From a virus: DNA of 35,288 nt. Shown piece after piece: positions 6,979 through 27,900 of the stretch; the stretch's first letter is position 1; every line of letters starts with the position of its first letter. Under the pieces are notes generated by a model. It searched no databases, was not told where the DNA came from, and saw only the letters and a program-made list of their open reading frames with translations. The position numbers and the translations under genes are program-made. The stretch spans positions 1-35,288 of the IMG/VR virus record IMGVR_UViG_3300030328_003647. The stretch is one strand, 5' to 3'.

Positions 6979-7866
6979 CTACTCTACTGCAAACTCATTT
7001 AGTTCCCAACACTTATCAGAAAAGTTACAGTATTGGCAATGCCAATCTGACTTGTGGGTTACTCCATCAATCACTTTAGATTTCTGAAGTGCCGTTTTCT
7101 TTTTGTTTGGGTATGCCTTATATGGACGTTCGGGTAGCTCTCCACGTGCTATCCTATCCATCACAAGCCACATTCTCTCAATGAGAGTCTCAACAAATGG
7201 TTCGTTCAGTTTAAGAACGTGTACTGATTCCTCAGAATTGTTCTTATTATAATAATGTAATACTCCGTATTTAATACTTTCGCCGTACATACCTAATTGT
7301 AATTGAGCGAAGTGGTCGTATTTGGGAACATCTTTAGCTCCGAACCAATATATCTGTCCTTGCTTGTTCTTCCCTGTACTGTATGGGAAGTCAGCGCTGC
7401 TTTTAAATTCAGTGACCATACTGTCGGTGTCTACTCCTAGTAGTTTTTCTTCACCGAACTTTCTCTTCAATATACCATCTACTCTGTAGTGTAATAAGAA
7501 GTCACCTTCGTGTCCATCTCTCTTTGGTATATGTATCTCGCCTGGAGCCTCTTCGTAGAATTTCCATCCATCCACTTGCCTATATCTATCTGATATACCT
7601 TCGTGTATGGCATCTCCCAGAGCGAATATCTTTAACTGTTTTGGTCCGATAGATGGATTAGTTTCCTTCTCTCCAGACACTGAATAAAACAACTGACGTT
7701 CACATCTTGTTGCGTCTGACGCGTAAAATGTTCTCCGTGTTCTATTACTTTTCCACTGTGTAGGTTCATCCAAATATTTAAAGAGAGATTCATTATCCTC
7801 TTTAGATAGTTCCATAATACTCACATCGTAGAGTTCTTTTATTTTATCAAATTCTTCTATTTTCAT
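6979..7866 (-). CDS. Cas4/RecB-like PD-(D/E)XK exonuclease with iron-sulfur cysteines
   Basis: A nuclease probably acting in DNA end processing or recombination. I place the start at the ATG at 7866 (295 residues), one base overlapping the upstream stop (TAATG) and following GGAGG; a TTG three codons' length upstream is less well placed. Numbering from that ATG, C55 lies in DATRCERQ and H88 in a DAIHEG motif. Catalytic residues are D130 (RVDGIL) and E153-x-K155 (TEFKSS), followed by a QLQLGMY helix. Three cysteines follow near the end (C277, C280, C286). One early plus three late cysteines is the 4Fe-4S signature of Cas4 and AddB-type nucleases. No CRISPR array or cas genes are nearby, so a replication role is more likely than adaptation. 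Confidence 0.85.
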   Translation of the reverse strand: MKIEEFDKIKELYDVSIMELSKEDNESLFKYLDEPTQWKSNRTRRTFYASDATRCERQLFYSVSGEKETNPSIGPKQLKIFALGDAIHEGISDRYRQVDGWKFYEEAPGEIHIPKRDGHEGDFLLHYRVDGILKRKFGEEKLLGVDTDSMVTEFKSSADFPYSTGKNKQGQIYWFGAKDVPKYDHFAQLQLGMYGESIKYGVLHYYNKNNSEESVHVLKLNEPFVETLIERMWLVMDRIARGELPERPYKAYPNKKKTALQKSKVIDGVTHKSDWHCQYCNFSDKCWELNEFAVE

Positions 7867-8012
7867 TACCAATCAACCTCCTCGTGGTTAACTATTGTTT
7901 CCCGTTTGCATTTCAGGCATTCATAAATGCTCTTATCTGCACTTTTATACACTAAGGTACATACTGAATAACAGTATGAGCATAGCGTAGAGCCTTCAGG
8001 ATACCAGCTCAT
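7866..8012 (-). CDS. 48-residue zinc-ribbon protein
   Basis: The peptide contains two CxxC knuckles (CSYC and CLKC) about 17 residues apart, a zinc ribbon. I chose the ATG at 8012 because it overlaps the stop of the upstream 26-codon gene as ATGA, and the stop overlaps the nuclease ATG as TAATG. A longer reading from 8069 (67 residues) in the same frame would run across the whole upstream microgene and is less likely. Function unknown. Confidence 0.65.
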   Translation of the reverse strand: MSWYPEGSTLCSYCYSVCTLVYKSADKSIYECLKCKRETIVNHEEVDW

Positions 8013-8089
8013 AGTAGTGTCACCCACGCGAGAAGGATAGACAACCCTATAGTAAGGGCTATCATCCATTCGGCTTCACTTAAATACAT
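8009..8089 (-). CDS. 26-residue single-pass membrane microprotein
   Basis: The peptide is an acidic/aromatic N-terminus (MYLSEAEW) followed by an uninterrupted hydrophobic helix of about 18 residues. Its ATG shares a base with the stop of the 71-residue gene (TAATG) and its stop overlaps the zinc-ribbon gene (ATGA). That exact head-to-tail fit is the main support for such a short gene. It looks like the membrane microproteins at 8984-9474. Confidence 0.55.
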   Translation of the reverse strand: MYLSEAEWMIALTIGLSILLAWVTLL

Positions 8090-8304
8090 TATTTCGGTCC
8101 CTTCTTTCCATAATATGGGTCGTCTTGAATCTTAGTCTTACCTATAATATTGCCAGCGTTTATGTTTGCCATATCGTGGTATTGTTGTAGTATCTGACCA
8201 AGTTCGTCGACCCACTTACTTACTATGAGTTCTTCGTATATGTCATTCTTTAATTCGAATTCCATAACTTCTAAACTCGCTTTGAATCTTTCAAATCCAT
8301 TCAT
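8089..8304 (-). CDS. Hypothetical 71-residue protein
   Basis: This mostly helical, charged protein of no recognised family has an N-terminal helix rich in Glu/Lys and a GKKGPK tail. The ATG overlaps the stop of the phytoene synthase gene (ATGA). It is therefore the first gene downstream of that enzyme and part of the same translation-coupled chain, which may hint at a shared role, but no function can be read from the sequence. Confidence 0.6.
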   Translation of the reverse strand: MNGFERFKASLEVMEFELKNDIYEELIVSKWVDELGQILQQYHDMANINAGNIIGKTKIQDDPYYGKKGPK

Positions 8305-8987
8305 TCTCTCACCTTTTTACCTGTCTTACCATCACATTTACAATTCTGATGTCCGTGCTCACAGTTACATATCCACATATTATCCCAAGTTGGTCCTTTA
8401 TCTATTAGAGAAACATACATTCTGTTAGCCATATGTATAGGTTCTCGTAGATGTTCGGGTATATAAACCATTCCTATCATTCCCATCTGAAGTTCCTTGA
8501 TGAATAGGTCGGTATATAAAGCGTGGTCATCAGTTATGTAATGGTATCCCTTATCTACATCCTCATCATAATCTCTTATAAAGTTAATTATTTGATATGC
8601 TCTGCCTAGTGCACGTGCAAACTTCTCTGCTTCTGGTGGACATCCTAATATCTTAGACATCATCATACCCACCGATTCAGCTGAGCCTTTGCAGTACTCT
8701 AGCATTGATTCCATTGTGTGTTTCTTTTGGACTATATCAGTAAACATAGAGATGTGAAAATCAGCTAACCACTGACCATCAAAGTCATACTTCTCGCTTA
8801 CACTGTAAAAGCTTTCTATTGCTTTTCTCCAGTCGCTATAGTCACACGTGGACAACTTTCCTTCTACCATTTCATCACATACTCTCAAGTAAGAATATAA
8901 TTTGTATATATCTTCCCTGATGTCTGCTGGCCATTTGTCCATACACTTGTAGAACGTAGTGCTATACTCTTCCATTATCTGTTTCAT
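8301..8987 (-). CDS. crtB: Phytoene/squalene synthase family enzyme
   Basis: This family joins two prenyl diphosphates head to head (two GGPP to phytoene, or two FPP to squalene), at membranes. Both aspartate-rich motifs are visible in the 228 residues: motif 1 is RVCDEMVEG (D38 to E42, as in the RTDELVDG of plant and bacterial enzymes), and motif 2 is FIRDYDEDVDKG (D139-D143). Before motif 2 come YCKGSAESVG and ALGRAYQIINF. The start is the ATG at 8987, which overlaps the preceding microgene as ATGA and has GAGG upstream; a GTG at 9011 is less likely. It is shorter than typical members (about 280 or more) and ends in a Cys/His-rich tail (CNCEHGHQNCKC). Phytoene would feed carotenoids and retinal for rhodopsin; squalene or a modified product remain possible. 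Confidence 0.85.
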   Translation of the reverse strand: MKQIMEEYSTTFYKCMDKWPADIREDIYKLYSYLRVCDEMVEGKLSTCDYSDWRKAIESFYSVSEKYDFDGQWLADFHISMFTDIVQKKHTMESMLEYCKGSAESVGMMMSKILGCPPEAEKFARALGRAYQIINFIRDYDEDVDKGYHYITDDHALYTDLFIKELQMGMIGMVYIPEHLREPIHMANRMYVSLIDKGPTWDNMWICNCEHGHQNCKCDGKTGKKVRE

Positions 8988-9079
8988 TCTGCATACCTCA
9001 GCATAAACCACAGCAAGGCCGACAATAATGTCAAGCCAAACATAGATGCTAATGCGTATACTATTTGTTCATCAATCAT
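8984..9079 (-). CDS. 31-residue single-pass membrane microprotein (chain gene 6)
   Basis: The peptide begins MIDEQIVYAL and is a hydrophobic helix over residues 6-27 ending in a basic LRYAE. The ATG overlaps the stop of the upstream zinc-ribbon gene (ATGA), follows AGGAGGT, and its stop overlaps the phytoene synthase ATG (ATGA). Being coupled to the synthase, it could help place that enzyme at the membrane; that is a guess from context. Confidence 0.65.
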   Translation of the reverse strand: MIDEQIVYALASMFGLTLLSALLWFMLRYAE

Positions 9080-9189
9080 ATTATACCTCCTATTTGTATG
9101 TAACATTCTCTGCAATATGGGTAACCACTGACATCTCTGTATCTAATGTATCTTTCATCGAGATTCCATTTACATAGATTACATTTCAT
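9076..9189 (-). CDS. 37-residue zinc-ribbon microprotein (chain gene 5)
   Basis: Two CxxC knuckles (CNLC at residues 3-6 and CREC at 26-29) make a compact zinc ribbon. ATGA overlaps join it to the membrane microproteins on both sides. The end of the gene carries the AGGAGGT ribosome-binding site for the next one. Confidence 0.68.
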   Translation of the reverse strand: MKCNLCKWNLDERYIRYRDVSGYPYCRECYIQIGGII

Positions 9190-9278
9190 TGCCAGAACCT
9201 CTTCCATAAGAAATAGAATAGGCCGGCTAATGGTCCATCTACTACAGCAAGTATAAATATTCCTTCAGTAAGTTCCAT
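9186..9278 (-). CDS. 30-residue membrane microprotein (chain gene 4)
   Basis: It begins MELTEGIFIL and has a hydrophobic stretch over residues 5-24, ending in a basic aromatic tail (LWKRFWQ) of the kind that sits at the cytoplasmic face. A one-base TAATG overlap joins it to the upstream gene and an ATGA overlap to the downstream one. No family is recognisable. Confidence 0.58.
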   Translation of the reverse strand: MELTEGIFILAVVDGPLAGLFYFLWKRFWQ

Positions 9279-9382
9279 TATTTATTTCTCCATATGTAAT
9301 ATTCTATTACTATAAATGTCCATATTATACCGAATATCATTATATCGAGATGATTAGGACTTTCGTAGTCTGTCCAGCTCAT
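9278..9382 (-). CDS. 34-residue membrane microprotein (chain gene 3)
   Basis: A polar acidic N-terminus (MSWTDYESPNHLD) precedes a long Ile/Phe/Trp-rich helix (residues 13-30) and a basic end (WRNK). It starts in an ATGA overlap with the upstream gene and ends in TAATG with the next. The charge pattern suggests the C-terminus faces the cytoplasm. Confidence 0.58.
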   Translation of the reverse strand: MSWTDYESPNHLDIMIFGIIWTFIVIEYYIWRNK

Positions 9383-9474
9383 ATCATTCTCCATATTATG
9401 TTAGCTATTGACATAAAGAAATATACTCTCATTTGACTTTGTATTGGAATCTCTAACGGTATTATATCACTCAT
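9379..9474 (-). CDS. 31-residue membrane-associated microprotein (chain gene 2)
   Basis: The first 13 residues are mixed (MSDIIPLEIP), followed by a hydrophobic/aromatic segment (residues 15-31) ending in WRMI. ATGA overlaps occur at both ends. The segment is short for a full membrane crossing, so peripheral association is possible. Confidence 0.52.
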   Translation of the reverse strand: MSDIIPLEIPIQSQMRVYFFMSIANIIWRMI

Positions 9475-9605
9475 CGTGGGTCAATCTCCCGTATAGGCCA
9501 GTAACTATTCTTATAGAATAAGCCACCTTGTATTAGATTATGTCTACAATCGCATTCTTGTGGCCAATCTAAACAGTATTGGCACCTACCATCATAGTCT
9601 TTCAT
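9471..9605 (-). CDS. 44-residue Cys/His-rich microprotein (chain gene 1)
   Basis: An N-terminal cluster C8-x2-C11, C18-x-C20-x-H22 could bind one zinc ion. The rest is aromatic and basic (YKNSYWPIR). The ATG overlaps the stop of the AAA+ ATPase gene (ATGA) and its stop overlaps the next microgene (ATGA). It is the first of six tiny genes occupying 8984-9605 in place of what would otherwise look like a 590-base gap. Confidence 0.62.
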   Translation of the reverse strand: MKDYDGRCQYCLDWPQECDCRHNLIQGGLFYKNSYWPIREIDPR

Positions 9606-10942
9606 TCTAAATGTCCTCCATATACTTGTAATGTCATAGGTATATTCTTATGTTCACCTGTAAAGGGGTCTGTATACATATGTAAGTCATCCTTCTTATA
9701 TTCTTCTGCAATATGTTCTGAATTAATCTCCATATTTGTAATACAGGCATCAACCAAACCCTTCCAATCTACTGAACGAGAGAAATCAAAGTCCTGCGTC
9801 CTGTAGTACTTATCAGCTTTAGGTATCTTACGTACAAAGTTAGCGTCGACTAGACGTGCCATTGTGAATTGTATCATCTTCTTGGTTCTATTTATTCCTT
9901 TATTTGAAAGGTAATCTGTAATTTCATCAATGTGAACTGCGTCTGAATCGCTCTCGGTGACCAAGTCACCCCATACTTCTGCTTTAGGCACAAAGTCTAT
10001 AATATCTTTTCCTATTGGATTGATACCTATAGACATATCTCTAAATATACTTCCTGCTAGTTGGAAGGCAATGAAGTTATCAGCTGGAGTGGAGTATATA
10101 TAATCTAAATCTTGTACTCTCTCTCGGTGATGGAACTTAGTAACTGCCTCAATAACATCGAAGTAGTAATCTATAAATGTGTTTGACATTGTGTATGTTG
10201 CAGGTATAGTTGTACGTATGACGTCTGCTCCTGGATTGATAACTCTTTTATCTAGTTCCATAGCTTCACGTATTTGATTCTTTAATCCACTTGTCTCTAC
10301 GCGTGAAAGCTTAACTAGCTTATCATCAGGCAACATCCTACTTATTGCTTTTAAGTGATGAACCTTTTCGTTTAGCTCCTTACTGGAGAACGTAGGCAAA
10401 CTTATTACTCTACGTTTCATCTCAACAGGGAGGGATGGTAGACTTTCGTTACCATCAGCAAGGTTCGTCATAATTGGTTTTGGGTCTAGTATGATTCTAA
10501 TCGTACGTCTGCCTAAGTCATTCTTACTGTATATGTACGGACGGTCCTCCATCCACAACTTAATCATTGCTTCAAGATTCTGTGACGTAAGTATATTTTG
10601 TAGCTCAGGAATAACACAACGTTTAGCTTGTGTTATAATCTGTGCGCTATCTTCTGTAAGATGTCCTTTAGCAGACGATGAATTTAACCACAATACATTG
10701 GGATTTCTACCTTCTAATCCTTCGTCTCCGTATACAAGGGAAGTGACAGCGTTTAAGATTTTAGTCTTTGCACTGCCAGATTCACCACGTATACATATGG
10801 ATTTACCGGCGATACCCCATAATAATAAGCTAAGTATTCGAGTTTCGTGGTTTTCTAATATAGGGTCTCTTTTACCTAAAACGAAACAACCTTCAAAATA
10901 TCGGTGCAAATCATTTAGTGTACTTTTTCTTTTACTAATCAT
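9602..10942 (-). CDS. AAA+ ATPase with C-terminal winged helix, putative replicative helicase
   Basis: The 446-residue protein has a Walker A motif GESGSAKT (53-60). A hydrophobic strand ends in IPEL (111-114) at the Walker B position. A sensor-1-like Asn lies in IMTNLADGN (N160), and there is an arginine-finger candidate in MKRRVISL (R177/R178). Residues about 340-405 (IDEITDYLSNKGI ... MARLVDANFVRKI ... YYRT) look like a winged helix. This domain order is that of MCM-type helicases without the N-terminal MCM domain, and no other helicase is seen in the window. The Walker B motif carries Pro-Glu rather than Asp-Glu. A helicase-loader or terminase-independent ATPase is the alternative. ATGA overlaps join it to small zinc-ribbon genes at both ends. 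Confidence 0.7.
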   Translation of the reverse strand: MISKRKSTLNDLHRYFEGCFVLGKRDPILENHETRILSLLLWGIAGKSICIRGESGSAKTKILNAVTSLVYGDEGLEGRNPNVLWLNSSSAKGHLTEDSAQIITQAKRCVIPELQNILTSQNLEAMIKLWMEDRPYIYSKNDLGRRTIRIILDPKPIMTNLADGNESLPSLPVEMKRRVISLPTFSSKELNEKVHHLKAISRMLPDDKLVKLSRVETSGLKNQIREAMELDKRVINPGADVIRTTIPATYTMSNTFIDYYFDVIEAVTKFHHRERVQDLDYIYSTPADNFIAFQLAGSIFRDMSIGINPIGKDIIDFVPKAEVWGDLVTESDSDAVHIDEITDYLSNKGINRTKKMIQFTMARLVDANFVRKIPKADKYYRTQDFDFSRSVDWKGLVDACITNMEINSEHIAEEYKKDDLHMYTDPFTGEHKNIPMTLQVYGGHLE

Positions 10943-11034
10943 AATACACTACAATCCTCACAAAGCTGATATTCATCGATATCGGTGTAGAGTTCGCACT
11001 CACCACACATTCCTATACTAGTCATTTTCCACAT
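10939..11034 (-). CDS. 31-residue zinc-ribbon microprotein
   Basis: The peptide carries CGEC and CEDC knuckles 12 residues apart. It starts two bases beyond the stop of the coiled-coil gene and its stop overlaps the ATPase ATG (ATGA). A second in-frame ATG three codons in could be the true start. It may act with the ATPase, judging only from coupling. Confidence 0.62.
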   Translation of the reverse strand: MWKMTSIGMCGECELYTDIDEYQLCEDCSVL

Positions 11035-14416: not shown

Positions 14417-15165
14417 TAAATCTCCTCCCCATCTGTGTTTACAAATTCTATTCGGTTTATACCTGCGTGGTCTACTACCTTATAGTGTTTGTATGACGAC
14501 TGAGTATCTATTTCGTTATCAGAACTATCGTACGTAAGTATACCGCCATCGCTCCATATGAACGATGTCCAGCTTCTTCTGTGATGTCCTTCATCCGACT
14601 CACTAGGTTCCATACGTCTCATATAATCCCACTCCTCTTTGCCACCTGCTTCCATTGCACGTGTGTAATACTCGAACAAGGACTTGTTAACAGCAATAGG
14701 TGTATCACTATAGGTTGAGCCGTACCTTCCTCTACGTCCACGTCTTCTATTAGAAGTACGTGCCGATGATACTATATTCCATATATCGGACTGACCGAAG
14801 CTACCTAAATCATAGAAGTACTTCGTCGAAGTTATCTTGTATGGCATACGTTCGAGTCTTGCTCTAGACAAGTCGGGTATGTTTCTTCCGTGAACTATTG
14901 CGTAGCCCTTTCCCTTTTCCAACCAACGTTCGATGGCGAACGTTAGCTTCTCGCTTACCACAGGTCCTCTGTACGTCTCTGTCTCTGGGTGCCATACCTT
15001 CCTGCCTACTGTGGCATTACATAGGTATGGTTCCCTGTCAGTATACGCAAACAATCCTGTCATCACGTTCGCCAACGGTACTCCATCACTTGAGTAGAAG
15101 TGGCCAAGTATATCATTACAATTTTCTTTCAGCGTACGTTCTCTCGATAGTGATAGTGTTCTCAT
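14416..15165 (-). CDS. Hypothetical 249-residue protein downstream of the amidotransferase
   Basis: The protein is rich in Tyr, Ser and Arg with an internal RRRGRRGRYGS basic loop (about residues 139-149) and several aromatic beta-like segments. No family is recognised. Its ATG overlaps the stop of the amidotransferase gene (ATGA), so it is translated together with it and could belong to the same pathway, either as substrate or partner. That link is context only. Confidence 0.6.
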   Translation of the reverse strand: MRTLSLSRERTLKENCNDILGHFYSSDGVPLANVMTGLFAYTDREPYLCNATVGRKVWHPETETYRGPVVSEKLTFAIERWLEKGKGYAIVHGRNIPDLSRARLERMPYKITSTKYFYDLGSFGQSDIWNIVSSARTSNRRRGRRGRYGSTYSDTPIAVNKSLFEYYTRAMEAGGKEEWDYMRRMEPSESDEGHHRRSWTSFIWSDGGILTYDSSDNEIDTQSSYKHYKVVDHAGINRIEFVNTDGEEI

Positions 15166-16409
15166 TGGTTATCCTCTATGTAGTCACATAATGACTCGTA
15201 AGTAATCGTGTAGTTAGAGCAGTTCTCATCGTCATTGACGGTGACCCATTGGTTAGCACTCAGCCAAGATACTAACATATCTCCGTACTCATCAGGTACC
15301 TGTCTAAGAACTACCTGCTGGTGTCTCTCTGAGTATGAACTAACTGAATCCATAACCGCTTTGGTTAACTCACCTGCATAGGATAACTCCTCTCCGTAGA
15401 ATCCATAGTTCTCAATGTCATCAATGACACTCTCGAATACTGTGTCTATGTCTGCATCGCAGTCATCCAATATCGCACTCATACGTGCTTTGGAATCTAG
15501 ACGCTGTTGTCTCTTCGTACTATTCTTAGACTCTGCCGTAGCTAACGTACCATCTGGGTCAGCCCAATCGTACTCATCCCAATTATATCCTCCGTATGCA
15601 CCGCCGTAATATTTCACAGCTCCTGTCCCTCTGTATACGTATGATTTAGGTTCGAACTCTCCAGCTTTCTGTACGTCTATGTTGTCTCCTTTATATACTA
15701 TGTTGTATATAGTACCTGACGTAGGTGTGGTTATCTCCCTTGCTTTAAATAGGTCTGACCCAAACAGGCCATCGCTTTTTATATAGGACATATCCTTTAA
15801 GCTGGACTCCGACGTACTACCGTATATGCTTACGTTGTCAGCTTCATCGATAGTTTTCATCATATAAAAGTTAGTGCTACTATTTTTCAAATAGTATAGG
15901 TTCTTTGATTGATGCACGTATATAAATAGTGAGTAAGAACCTTGCAGTTCTTCTGCACTCTTAGTGATTGCATCTATCTCGGACTCACCTGCATTCACGT
16001 AGTGGTCTACTAACGCAGGTACAATCGCACTATCTGTCTGTGTTGTATAGTTGAATCCATACTGAGCCTTTAGCTCGTCATCGTTAGAGATGATACCATT
16101 GTGAACCACAGTACACGTATCGTTCGTGAATGGGTGGTTGTTGTCGTTATCTTTCTCACTACCTTGCGTAGCTAGTCTGTTGTGACCTACGAGCCAATTA
16201 CTTGGCAGGTCTGCTAACATATGACGTAGGCTATTATCCTTTTTGTCTTTCAATTCATAATAGGCTTTGCCTACCTTCCATTGGTACGCATCGCTGAATA
16301 TGCCTGTTGCATCACGGTTCGACCTAGAACCGCACTCCAACATATTAATGAAGTTATTTACGTTGTCATTACCCAACGTGTTGCTTACAACAAATTGTAT
16401 TTCACACAA
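15162..16409 (-). CDS. Class II glutamine amidotransferase domain protein (Ntn hydrolase)
   Basis: It should hydrolyse glutamine to release ammonia for a partner enzyme. I place the start at a TTG (16409), eight bases after a perfect AGGAGGTGAT site; this puts Cys at residue 2, the N-terminal nucleophile after Met removal. A GTG nine bases upstream lies inside the ribosome-binding site. Further GATase II motifs in the 415 residues are VGHNRLA (H76, N77, R78), NHPF (91-94), VVHNGIIS (H103, N104, G105) and TQTDSA (D126), matching the GlmS/PurF order. The rest (about 220-415) has no known synthase domain. Its partner is probably the amidoligase just upstream, whose stop overlaps the ribosome-binding site. 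Confidence 0.85.
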   Translation of the reverse strand: MCEIQFVVSNTLGNDNVNNFINMLECGSRSNRDATGIFSDAYQWKVGKAYYELKDKKDNSLRHMLADLPSNWLVGHNRLATQGSEKDNDNNHPFTNDTCTVVHNGIISNDDELKAQYGFNYTTQTDSAIVPALVDHYVNAGESEIDAITKSAEELQGSYSLFIYVHQSKNLYYLKNSSTNFYMMKTIDEADNVSIYGSTSESSLKDMSYIKSDGLFGSDLFKAREITTPTSGTIYNIVYKGDNIDVQKAGEFEPKSYVYRGTGAVKYYGGAYGGYNWDEYDWADPDGTLATAESKNSTKRQQRLDSKARMSAILDDCDADIDTVFESVIDDIENYGFYGEELSYAGELTKAVMDSVSSYSERHQQVVLRQVPDEYGDMLVSWLSANQWVTVNDDENCSNYTITYESLCDYIEDNQ

Positions 16410-16413
16410 ATTT

Positions 16414-16423
16414 ATCACCTCCT
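16414..16423 (-). promoter_or_regulatory. Perfect ribosome-binding site that decides the TTG start
   Basis: On the minus strand this reads AGGAGGTGAT, fully complementary to the usual 3' end of 16S rRNA. Its spacing suits the TTG at 16409 and rules out the in-frame GTG at 16418, which lies within it. It is among the strongest such sites in the window, apparently offsetting a weak start codon. Confidence 0.8.
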
Positions 16424-17712
16424 TAGTGTTGTGTTCCTTTTTCGTAGTTCGCTATCATCCAACTGCTCACCTCTGGTGAGAATTGTTCTGCGAACTCCTT
16501 GAGTTCGAGTAGTGAATGTGCTTCGCCTCTGAACTTGAGTCCACGTGGTCTGTACGCAGCCTTACGTATGAACTCATTCCAAAATTGAATGAACATCTTG
16601 TAGTCATCACCTGTTTCCTTGTATGCTTCACGTGTCCATTGTACGTGGTCGGTGAAGTTCTGTCGGAATGTAATAGGTTGATACAGTCGTATCTCTACAC
16701 GTTTGTTATCACTATTGGCCATTGGTGACCAATTCATCCACGCATACCTGCCCATCTCAGAACCACGTGTAGCACGTCGTCTGTGGTCACGGTATCCGTA
16801 GTCTATCTTCTTGTCCATCGCCCATTGTGATGCCCAAGATACGTATTGGTCAGTCCAAGCACAGGCATATGAACGCATCATACCAGAGAAGTATCTGAAC
16901 TCCTCAGGTGCCATACGTACAAGTGAATCAAATCTCTGCATAGCAGACCATATGTTCTTCTGTCTCTGTAGGCTGAACGTTTCCATTTCATAATGGAAGT
17001 GCCATCCCACATTACGAGACATCATATATCCATTCATTGCGAACTGTTCGCACATATTATCGATGGTGTTTGCTACGTCATCTCCCCTCATTGGGTGTGT
17101 GACGTACTCCGTACCACCGCTGTCTAGTGACCCGTCATCCTTCGCTTCTGCTATTGCATTACGTAGGTCGGTTGGCATAGTATCTGCCATCGCTTCACCA
17201 CCTTCGGCCTCGAACTCGATGCCTACGTAGTTACGCACGGGGTACTGCCTGAACGAGTTTGATACTCGCTTGGCGAACCGGTTATACCACCTATCCGTAG
17301 TGTATCTGTAGCTTTCACCACAGCTATCACACGTGTAGGATTCTATCCTGTCCTGCCATTGTAAGTCATCTACGTGTGACGTATGGCCACAGTCATAACA
17401 ATGGCCTACTTCATCCTCGTATTGGTCTCTGTCTATGCAGTCACCATTCGAGAGTTCGAGTATTTGGTCGTTGAATACTCGGTCACCTGACCAATCGCAC
17501 GTTTGTGTTTCATCACAATACGTATTGTACGATACGGCATATCCATTTACGTTGTCGTAAATTTCTCTAACTAATTCACCTGTCCACTCGTCAGATGGCA
17601 ACGTGTCATAACATTCATCGCAGATGTCGCACTCGACACCCTCGATGTGTTCCGATGTTGTTGCCTCTGCCTCGTCACAGATTTCACAGATTATTTTTGT
17701 TTCGTTCTCCAT
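16423..17712 (-). CDS. Amidoligase-type enzyme (putative COOH-NH2 ligase) with N-terminal zinc knuckles
   Basis: The family belongs to the glutamine synthetase-like fold and is predicted to form amide bonds using ATP. From residue 160 the family pattern is clear: YVGIEFEAEGG (E166, E168), KDDGSLDSGGTEYVTHP (D193, S195, E202, H206), and GWHFHYEME (H238, H240) preceded by a glycine-rich turn. The first 140 residues carry at least five Cys pairs (CEIC, CDICDEC, CYDC, CDSC), likely treble-clef or ribbon zinc sites for substrate recognition. Amidoligases of this type are known to sit beside or be fused to glutamine amidotransferases, as here. The target could be a peptide, a protein tail or a host surface polymer; the sequence does not say. 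Confidence 0.78.
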   Translation of the reverse strand: MENETKIICEICDEAEATTSEHIEGVECDICDECYDTLPSDEWTGELVREIYDNVNGYAVSYNTYCDETQTCDWSGDRVFNDQILELSNGDCIDRDQYEDEVGHCYDCGHTSHVDDLQWQDRIESYTCDSCGESYRYTTDRWYNRFAKRVSNSFRQYPVRNYVGIEFEAEGGEAMADTMPTDLRNAIAEAKDDGSLDSGGTEYVTHPMRGDDVANTIDNMCEQFAMNGYMMSRNVGWHFHYEMETFSLQRQKNIWSAMQRFDSLVRMAPEEFRYFSGMMRSYACAWTDQYVSWASQWAMDKKIDYGYRDHRRRATRGSEMGRYAWMNWSPMANSDNKRVEIRLYQPITFRQNFTDHVQWTREAYKETGDDYKMFIQFWNEFIRKAAYRPRGLKFRGEAHSLLELKEFAEQFSPEVSSWMIANYEKGTQH

Positions 17713-26819: not shown

Positions 26820-26950
26820 TGGCAAAGGATGGAAAAAAGGCACCTAAGGGATATCATTTTATGCCAGATGGTAGTTTGATGAAAGATAGTGATATGAAAA
26901 AAGGAAAGAAACCTAAATATCCAACAAATAAATCAGGTAAACGTTATTAA
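26819..26950 (+). CDS. 43-residue basic protein
   Basis: A Lys/Gly/Pro-rich peptide beginning MAKDGKKAPKGYHFMPDG and ending in NKSGKRY. The one-base TAATG overlaps at both ends (with portal and with the membrane protein) support it. Small GYHxMPDG-type basic proteins occur near phage portals, but no role is known. Confidence 0.68.
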   Translation: MAKDGKKAPKGYHFMPDGSLMKDSDMKKGKKPKYPTNKSGKRY

Positions 26951-27900
26951 TGGCACGGGATGATTACGGAGCAATAAACGTCATCACTGACGAAGAAAAG
27001 GAAGCACTCGGACTTTCTGGTCGTAAACCAGACGATGAAGAGGGCGTTTTCGAACAGATAGGCAAAACTGCCGATAAAATAGGGGAGACGAAGTTAGGAC
27101 AAAAAATAGGCTCTATTTTAACAGTCCTCATTTTAGCTATGTTTGGGAGCGGTACAGCCGACCTAGATATGTTCGGGGACCTATTTGACTCGGAGGAACC
27201 TACGGGCCCTAAAGGGGGCTGTATGGACCCCTCAGCGATGAATTACAAAAAGGATGCAACATTCGATAATGGTTCTTGTGTTTTTCCGCCACCTGTAATT
27301 TATGGATGTACTAATCCTGACGCTGAAAACTATAATAAGCAGGCGACGCACGATAATGGGCGTTGTCAATTTCTCGGTGGACCTGGGGACAATAATACTG
27401 GAAACCAGACGGCCACGAATGAGACTGTCGTTGGATGTATGGATATAGATGCATCAAATTATAATGACAGAGCCGAGGAAGATGATGGTAGCTGTGAATA
27501 TGAAGAATATAATTGCACGGCTAATGAAACTTACTTTTGGAATGGTATGCAATATGGAAACTATTCCAGAGAAGATGAATCTACGTTAAATATAACGATA
27601 GATATAGATACTGACTGTGACCAGGATACATTGCCTGTTATGGTCGGATACGATGTCGGACATCTGAAAGTAGAAGACAATGAAACAGTATGGAATGGTT
27701 ATATGTATAATGACTATTTCTTTAATGTCACTGGGTGGGAGCAAAATGAATATATGCTTCATTCGGGGCCTGAATATTTCACAGAGCCTTACACAGGATA
27801 TTACATTGTTTATGTCAATCTATGGGCAGACTGGGAAAGAAATGGAACCTATGAGTGGGTCAATTATTTTGTAATTGGAGAATTATTCTTAGAGGAATGA
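26950..27900 (+). CDS. Membrane-anchored surface protein with three GCxD-type cysteine repeats
   Basis: The 316-residue protein has a charged cytoplasmic N-terminus (1-50) and one membrane helix (about 53-67). Three repeats follow, of the form GC-x-D/N-P-x-A-x-N-Y-x-A-x-D-N-G-x-C, at about 90-111, 119-140 and 162-183, each closing with a disulfide-type Cys pair; such repeats are common in secreted proteins of marine microbes and probably bind calcium. A beta-rich C-terminal domain carries many N-x-S/T sequons (about ten overall). It is likely displayed outside the cell or on the virion and could act in attachment, exclusion or release. TAATG and ATGA overlaps tie it to its neighbours. Confidence 0.72.
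   Translation: MARDDYGAINVITDEEKEALGLSGRKPDDEEGVFEQIGKTADKIGETKLGQKIGSILTVLILAMFGSGTADLDMFGDLFDSEEPTGPKGGCMDPSAMNYKKDATFDNGSCVFPPPVIYGCTNPDAENYNKQATHDNGRCQFLGGPGDNNTGNQTATNETVVGCMDIDASNYNDRAEEDDGSCEYEEYNCTANETYFWNGMQYGNYSREDESTLNITIDIDTDCDQDTLPVMVGYDVGHLKVEDNETVWNGYMYNDYFFNVTGWEQNEYMLHSGPEYFTEPYTGYYIVYVNLWADWERNGTYEWVNYFVIGELFLEE

Follow-up and report, generated by a model that had tools for sequence, protein, structure and literature searches.

Haloviruses of the HF1 group (HF1, HF2, Serpecor1, and Hardycor2; Hafunaviridae) encode numerous small CxxC proteins in the non-structural half of their genomes (PMC7230728), and in HF2, small CxxC and transmembrane (TM) genes with 1, 4, or 8 nt overlaps are found between a PD-(D/E)XK nuclease and a family B polymerase (PolB). 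In tailed phages such as the mycobacteriophages and lambdoid phages, modules are often single genes with edges at gene boundaries, small non-structural ORFs are many, and a boundary-sequence model proposes short boundary sequences as the points of exchange (PMC3233612). The ATGA and TGATG overlaps of Haloferax volcanii and E. coli place the Shine-Dalgarno (SD) motif inside the upstream gene, with coupling measured in 13 of 14 pairs (PMC6728339), and coupling at such overlaps is established by experiment in both organisms (PMC6728339, PMC10666635); overlaps of 1 or 4 nt are the commonest gene spacing in prokaryotes (PMC10666635). Among cellular proteins of <70 aa with two Cys pairs, some bind zinc and affect stress adaptation, biofilm, and swarming (PMC6562870, PMC10716476, PMC11241148); we liken them to the microproteins described below in size and Cys pairs.

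The window (the whole stretch of viral DNA that was analyzed, 35,288 nt) contains microgenes that are like the CxxC microprotein gene blocks of the HF1-group haloviruses, and its PolB is a distant match (∼22% identical to HF1/HF2), but HF2 has no detectable homologue of the AAA+-like protein of the window at the limit used, and the HF1 group, whose hosts are hypersaline, shows no synthase and no homologous microprotein. With PolB at this level and TerL without a match in named phages, family-level core homology to the Hafunaviridae was not found. The distant matches of PolB and AAA+ include haloarchaeal tailed viruses and, for PolB, bacterial phages as well; from the haloarchaeal matches we infer an archaeal host, and the window probably derives from a tailed marine virus of archaea. 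Of two host scans for close relatives in genomes, the first returned none and the second only a 30% identical protein in a Corynebacterium MAG. Whereas the work in H. volcanii and E. coli concerns pairs, the window has at least 13 genes in series, many of them shorter than 50 codons.

We consider it probable that the locus groups accessory microgenes into a modular array, which is translated as a termination-reinitiation relay and belongs to the early/replication arm of a marine tailed virus that probably infects archaea. The original prediction held that the interval between the AAA+ ATPase and the synthase resolves into six frames of 30-44 codons, each joined to the next by a short stop/start overlap. 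Both statements were confirmed: the minus strand of the interval is filled by frames of 44, 31, 34, 30, 37, and 31 aa (g1-g6, Table 1), the seven overlaps from AAA+ through g1-g6 to the synthase are 4, 4, 4, 1, 4, 4, and 4 nt, and each of the starts is preceded by an SD motif. The chain extends past the synthase through orf71, orf26, and orf48 to a Cas4-like nuclease, and orf31Zn joins at the upstream side. For g3, g5, g6, and the synthase, a mechanical longest-ORF call places the start farther upstream than the ATGA; the ATGA starts are backed by an SD motif 5-9 nt upstream and, for g3, also by the close relative L001, in which the frame opens at the ATGA start. The AAA+-like protein has no Pfam match, and the name therefore rests on the original prediction and a P-loop-like GESGSAKT; its homologues are proteins of the relatives (65-100% identical), with weak matches to HSTV-2/HRTV proteins and phrog_12057.

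Table 1. Coordinates of the array and its flanking genes in the window
Feature	Position	Strand	Description
orf31Zn	10939..11034	-	Cys-rich microgene preceding AAA+; 4-nt overlap
AAA+-like ATPase	9602..10942	-	upstream end of array; C-terminus GGHLE*
g1	9471..9605	-	44 aa, Cys-rich (CxxC...CxC); confined to 5 lineage-A genomes
g2	9379..9474	-	31 aa, DIIPLEIP motif and moderately hydrophobic, possibly amphipathic segment; 11 contigs; missing in L001
g3	9278..9382	-	34 aa, single TM; window and L001 only
g4	9186..9278	-	30 aa, single TM, invariant Asp-Gly-Pro within helix; ∼10 contigs, several positions
g5	9076..9189	-	37 aa, four invariant Cys (CxxC-x19-CxxC), treble-clef-like
g6	8984..9079	-	31 aa, single TM; window and L001 only
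Squalene/phytoene-synthase-family enzyme	8301..8987	-	228 aa: ∼200-aa catalytic part and fused Cys-rich tail (residues ∼201-228)
orf71	8089..8304	-	next in chain after synthase; 4-nt overlap
orf26	8009..8089	-	single TM; 1-nt overlap
orf48	7866..8012	-	Cys-rich (CxxC pairs); 4-nt overlap
Cas4-like nuclease	6979-7866	-	follows orf48; 1-nt overlap

The overlaps and the SD motifs in the upstream genes are those of a termination-reinitiation operon, and as judged from sequence the microgenes have the anatomy of translational coupling. A match of at least 4 nt to the SD consensus GGAGGTGATC is within reach of 10 of the 11 starts downstream of AAA+, compared with 19% for the 89 remaining ATGs of that stretch. 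The motif sits in codons of the upstream gene, namely Gly-Gly in AAA+ and g5 and Trp-Arg in g2 and g3; the codons of the terminal GGHLE* of AAA+ hold GGAGG, the SD of g1, and the C-terminal GG codons of g5 hold that of the next gene. Over 11 loci, SD motifs precede 64% of 154 coupled starts and 26% of other ATGA sites, with a weaker signal in L009 and L014 (30-36% of coupled starts); this count, like the chains and microgene families in the relatives, comes from a gene caller that rewarded 1/4-nt overlaps, so that chain lengths in relatives are upper estimates. A ribosome finishing one microgene would restart on the next, and a single message would then yield every product down to the synthase. 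As an SD and an ATGA close each unit, whole units could be inserted, deleted, or swapped without breaking downstream expression. That the tail of each gene carries the start signal of the next provides a testable rule for the spread of very small genes.

Comparison with the relatives bears on this modularity. L001 (AAA+ 100%, synthase 95% identical to the window) has no g2; the alignment places this loss or gain precisely between two ATGAG sequences, and the DNA on either side is identical. Between the window and L001, g4 (55% aa identity) and orf31Zn (52%) lie between genes of 92-97% nt identity, and identity resumes at the ATGA of the next gene; the divergence of orf31Zn, with flanks at 96-97% nt and an edge at the AAA+ ATGA, looks like a single-gene replacement. 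The g1 gene is 95% identical between the window and L005 and 74% between L003 and L005, though AAA+ groups L003 with L005 (95%), and the synthase is 97% identical between L003 and L005, yet 59% to the window. The same 3' ends are found before different genes: that of g1 (..GGGAGA..CCCACG) before g2 (window, L003), g3 (L001), or alt77 (L005), that of g2 before g3, alt57, or g5, and that of g5 before g6, the synthase, or alt57. Single-gene modules with edges at gene boundaries are thus present as in tailed phages; the difference here, in viruses that are probably archaeal, is that the relay serves as the common boundary, made up of an ATGA and the SD at the 3' end of the upstream gene. A synthase tree leans to an exchange of the window's synthase with the more distant lineage B defined below (84/83), which at AU p = 0.13 we do not take as proven.

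The foremost alternative is ordinary compact packing, where coupling and mosaicism arise from selection for compactness and random illegitimate recombination and the junction has no role in exchange, a possibility that we take seriously without thinking it probable. It departs from the relay array only at the last, inferred step, the role of the junction in exchange, and it draws on the same literature: single-gene modules with gene-boundary edges are standard in tailed phages and can be explained by selection alone (PMC3233612), and the overlaps have the lengths most common in prokaryotes (PMC10666635). The exact indel with ATGAG at both ends and the reuse of 3' ends before different genes would fit exchange guided by a boundary sequence, though the few events examined are compatible with both readings; the ATGA(G) junction may act as a short homology for exchange. 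Taken furthest, the SD-ATGA junction would be both translation relay and recombination boundary, and several marine archaeal virus lineages, deeply separated from one another, would share a mobile stock of plug-in microgenes (zinc, membrane, others, and a minimal prenyl synthase), shuffled singly without a dedicated recombinase; we offer this extension tentatively and regard it as rather doubtful.

The original prediction proposed that the membrane and zinc microproteins could form a small membrane-modifying or membrane-organizing complex with the synthase and called for a search for the same order in related viral contigs. We mapped gene order in 23 loci, and neither order nor content is conserved. 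The relatives fall into lineage A (L001, L003, L004, and L005; AAA+ 90-100% identical to the window), lineage B (L009-L018, L020, L042, L053, and L054), and lineage C (L019, L024, and L025). L003-L005 (AAA+ 90-91%) lack g3, g4, and g6 and carry different microgenes as well as an altered order, which reads g1, g2, alt57, g5, synthase in L003 and L004 and g1, alt77, g2, g5, alt57, synthase in L005. In L006 (AAA+ 65%), there are no microgenes and no synthase, and AAA+ is followed directly by the nuclease. The synthases of lineages B and C are 57-66% identical to that of the window, while their cores (compared in L009-L020, L024, and L025) are far more distant, with PolB at 25-30%, AAA+ at 24-27% (undetected in L019 and L024), and terminase undetected except for one weak match; by these comparisons, the same microgene families and synthase recur in viruses with very distant core genes. 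In lineage B, g2 and g5 are downstream of the synthase and g4 is either far downstream or just upstream of it. In L050 (from G025), g5 immediately precedes g4, opposite to their order in the window, and between 3617 and 6272 this locus has 19 called small genes, many of them Cys-rich, with 13 of 18 junctions at -4/-1 under the overlap-rewarding caller. We also observed a family of small proteins, alt57, with the motif RRNIAGRGTLSGFLS (L024 520-693, L019 1092-1265, and L005 7900-8073), whose conservation among distant viruses is strong and which in every case lies close to the synthase, whether before or after it. A protein of 55-56 aa among the microgenes of L014 (7371-7538) and L053 (4473-4643) has, by eye, a likeness to the AbrB/SpoVT-type fold.

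A dedicated membrane complex of the synthase with zinc and TM microproteins, which would make or organize an isoprenoid, would account for some of this pattern. The genes are adjacent and coupled in the window and L001, g5 and the synthase occur together in 19 contigs, distant lineages included, and g4 and g5 are both missing from the three lineage-A relatives that have no synthase. Subunits of heteromeric complexes are overrepresented among overlapping gene pairs (PMC10666635), and some overlapping neighbors could therefore interact. However, g3 and g6 occur in two contigs only, g4 and g6 are missing even from the close relatives L003-L005, and in lineage B g5 stands 1-2 kb downstream of the synthase and is coupled to other genes. 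In addition, two large contigs, G024 (72.5 kb) and G025 (75.5 kb), contain g5 but no synthase, and the three lineage C contigs have the synthase without g5. Because gene content and order vary, we do not adopt a fixed complex as the best explanation and judge it unlikely; the microgenes look like interchangeable accessory genes served by a single translation relay, not like the components of a fixed machine.

Whether the frames are genes at all was addressed by shuffling and by tests of selection. In 3000 dinucleotide-preserving shuffles of the 621-nt segment, with a chain defined by 1/4-nt overlaps and at least 25 codons per gene, the longest chain was three genes and appeared in 2 of the 3000. 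On the real minus strand, a chain of 13 genes spans 4056 nt, and 40 whole-strand shuffles never gave more than three genes, so the expectation that such precise junctions would hardly arise by chance held. In the 20-kb left arm, 17 of 37 junctions are -4/-1 with a gene call that did not reward overlaps; precise junctions therefore characterize these viral arms in general rather than the AAA+/synthase interval in particular. Between the window and L001, dN/dS is 0.126 for g3, 0.28 for g4, 0.035 for g5, 0.106 for g6, 0.108 for the synthase, and 0.022 for AAA+, and g1 has two synonymous changes and zero amino acid changes. When amino acid changes were compared with simulated neutral change, g1, g2, g3, g5, and g6 fell below the neutral expectation (P from <0.0001 to 0.024), including g1 against L005 (2 amino acid changes among 12 nt changes, P = 0.0003), g3 (P = 0.0135), and g6 (P = 0.024). 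One close lineage-B pair gave no significant selection on g2 (P = 0.12). For g4, the window-L001 pair was not significant (P = 0.39), and two lineage-B pairs were (<0.0001 and 0.006). The predicted purifying selection is thus detectable in every family, and with homologues for each, the six microgenes are, on this sequence evidence, real genes. The alternative that these frames are open by chance within a non-coding or regulatory spacer, suggested by their shortness and the want of a significant Pfam/PHROGs match, is extremely improbable and was rejected, given a chain absent from shuffles, the SD motifs, homologues on further contigs (as many as 19 in the case of g5), and purifying selection. 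In such viruses, a few hundred bases left blank by annotation can therefore be packed with conserved genes of 30-45 aa that escape family libraries. Read from sequence, the array combines overlaps, SD motifs in upstream 3' ends, and purifying selection with gain, loss, replacement, and reordering of microgenes at ATGA edges.

The microproteins were expected to alternate between metal-binding and membrane types. This holds for the Cys-rich g1 and g5 and the single-TM g3, g4, and g6, but g2 has no clear membrane character (its highest Kyte-Doolittle mean over 17 residues is 1.16, compared with 1.98-2.06 for g3, g4, and g6). The expected zinc ribbon of g5 fared similarly: the four Cys are invariant, but the model is treble-clef-like rather than clearly a ribbon, its structural neighbors (LIM/GATA/RING) are not significant, and the Pfam LIM domain match (18.5 bits) does not reach the gathering score of 22.9. 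All Pfam and PHROGs matches of the microproteins were sub-threshold, and we dropped the corresponding names. Coupled microgene families found in two or more loci number 43, including 15 of the Zn type and 10 of the TM type. Zn-type features are seen in 34% of microgenes versus 3% in shuffled residues, and TM in 21% versus 7%. Most likely, the zinc and single-TM microproteins would act as independent small effectors on host regulators or the host membrane.

The synthase had been named a phytoene synthase. Its membership of the squalene/phytoene synthase family is clear (PF00494, 86.7 bits against a cut-off of 26, E = 2.7e-24), but the NCBIfam equivalogs (CrtB, HpnC, HpnD, and squalene synthase) all score far under cut-off (HpnD 54.7 versus 278.6 bits, the others lower), and the specific name is for that reason not established. 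The model (mean pLDDT 83) has the all-alpha prenyl synthase fold and matches CrtM/HpnC at a TM-score of ∼0.7 by query (Foldseek against 8is6, E 2.9e-5); the nearest solved sequences are those of CrtM and of dehydrosqualene synthase. With CrtM, HpnC, and CrtB the enzyme shares the fold, both acidic motifs, and the Arg/Tyr/Gln/Asn active-site residues. The metal-binding motifs DExxE (38-42) and NxxxDxxxD (135-143) are invariant in 19 synthase sequences, as are, in CrtM numbering, Y41, R45, D48, Y129, Q165, N168, D172, and D176. Unlike those ∼280-aa enzymes, that of the window has ∼200 aa (∼80 residues shorter), and in all 19 sequences H18 is replaced by Tyr/Phe, K20 by Thr, and D52, the second Asp of the first motif, by Glu, so the full CrtM diphosphate-ligand set is not found. 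Sequence and model suggest that the enzyme is likely an active prenyl-diphosphate enzyme, and it would most likely serve as an accessory isoprenoid enzyme using host prenyl diphosphates. A ∼200-aa viral member of this family thus occurs in at least two lineages with very distant core genes. Named phages gave no match to it, we found no description of such a synthase in such viruses among the open-licence papers searched, and a study of mesopelagic archaeal viruses (PMC5474096) does not mention one.

The C-terminus of the synthase (window 8301-8390, minus strand) is a Cys-rich tail, CNCxHGHxNCxCDGK. The window and L001 have this tail fused to the synthase, L003-L005 encode it in a different reading frame, and L019, L024, and L025 have it as a small gene of its own; its arrangement in L003-L005 could reflect frameshifting or a separate start. 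Elsewhere on the minus strand of the window (15162-16418 and 16423-17712), a GlmS-like glutamine amidotransferase domain adjoins a protein with an amidoligase match (PHROG 7469), possibly a pair for peptide or glycan modification. On the plus strand (26950-27900), a protein of the structural arm carries repeats like GCTNPDAxNYNxxATxDNGxC.
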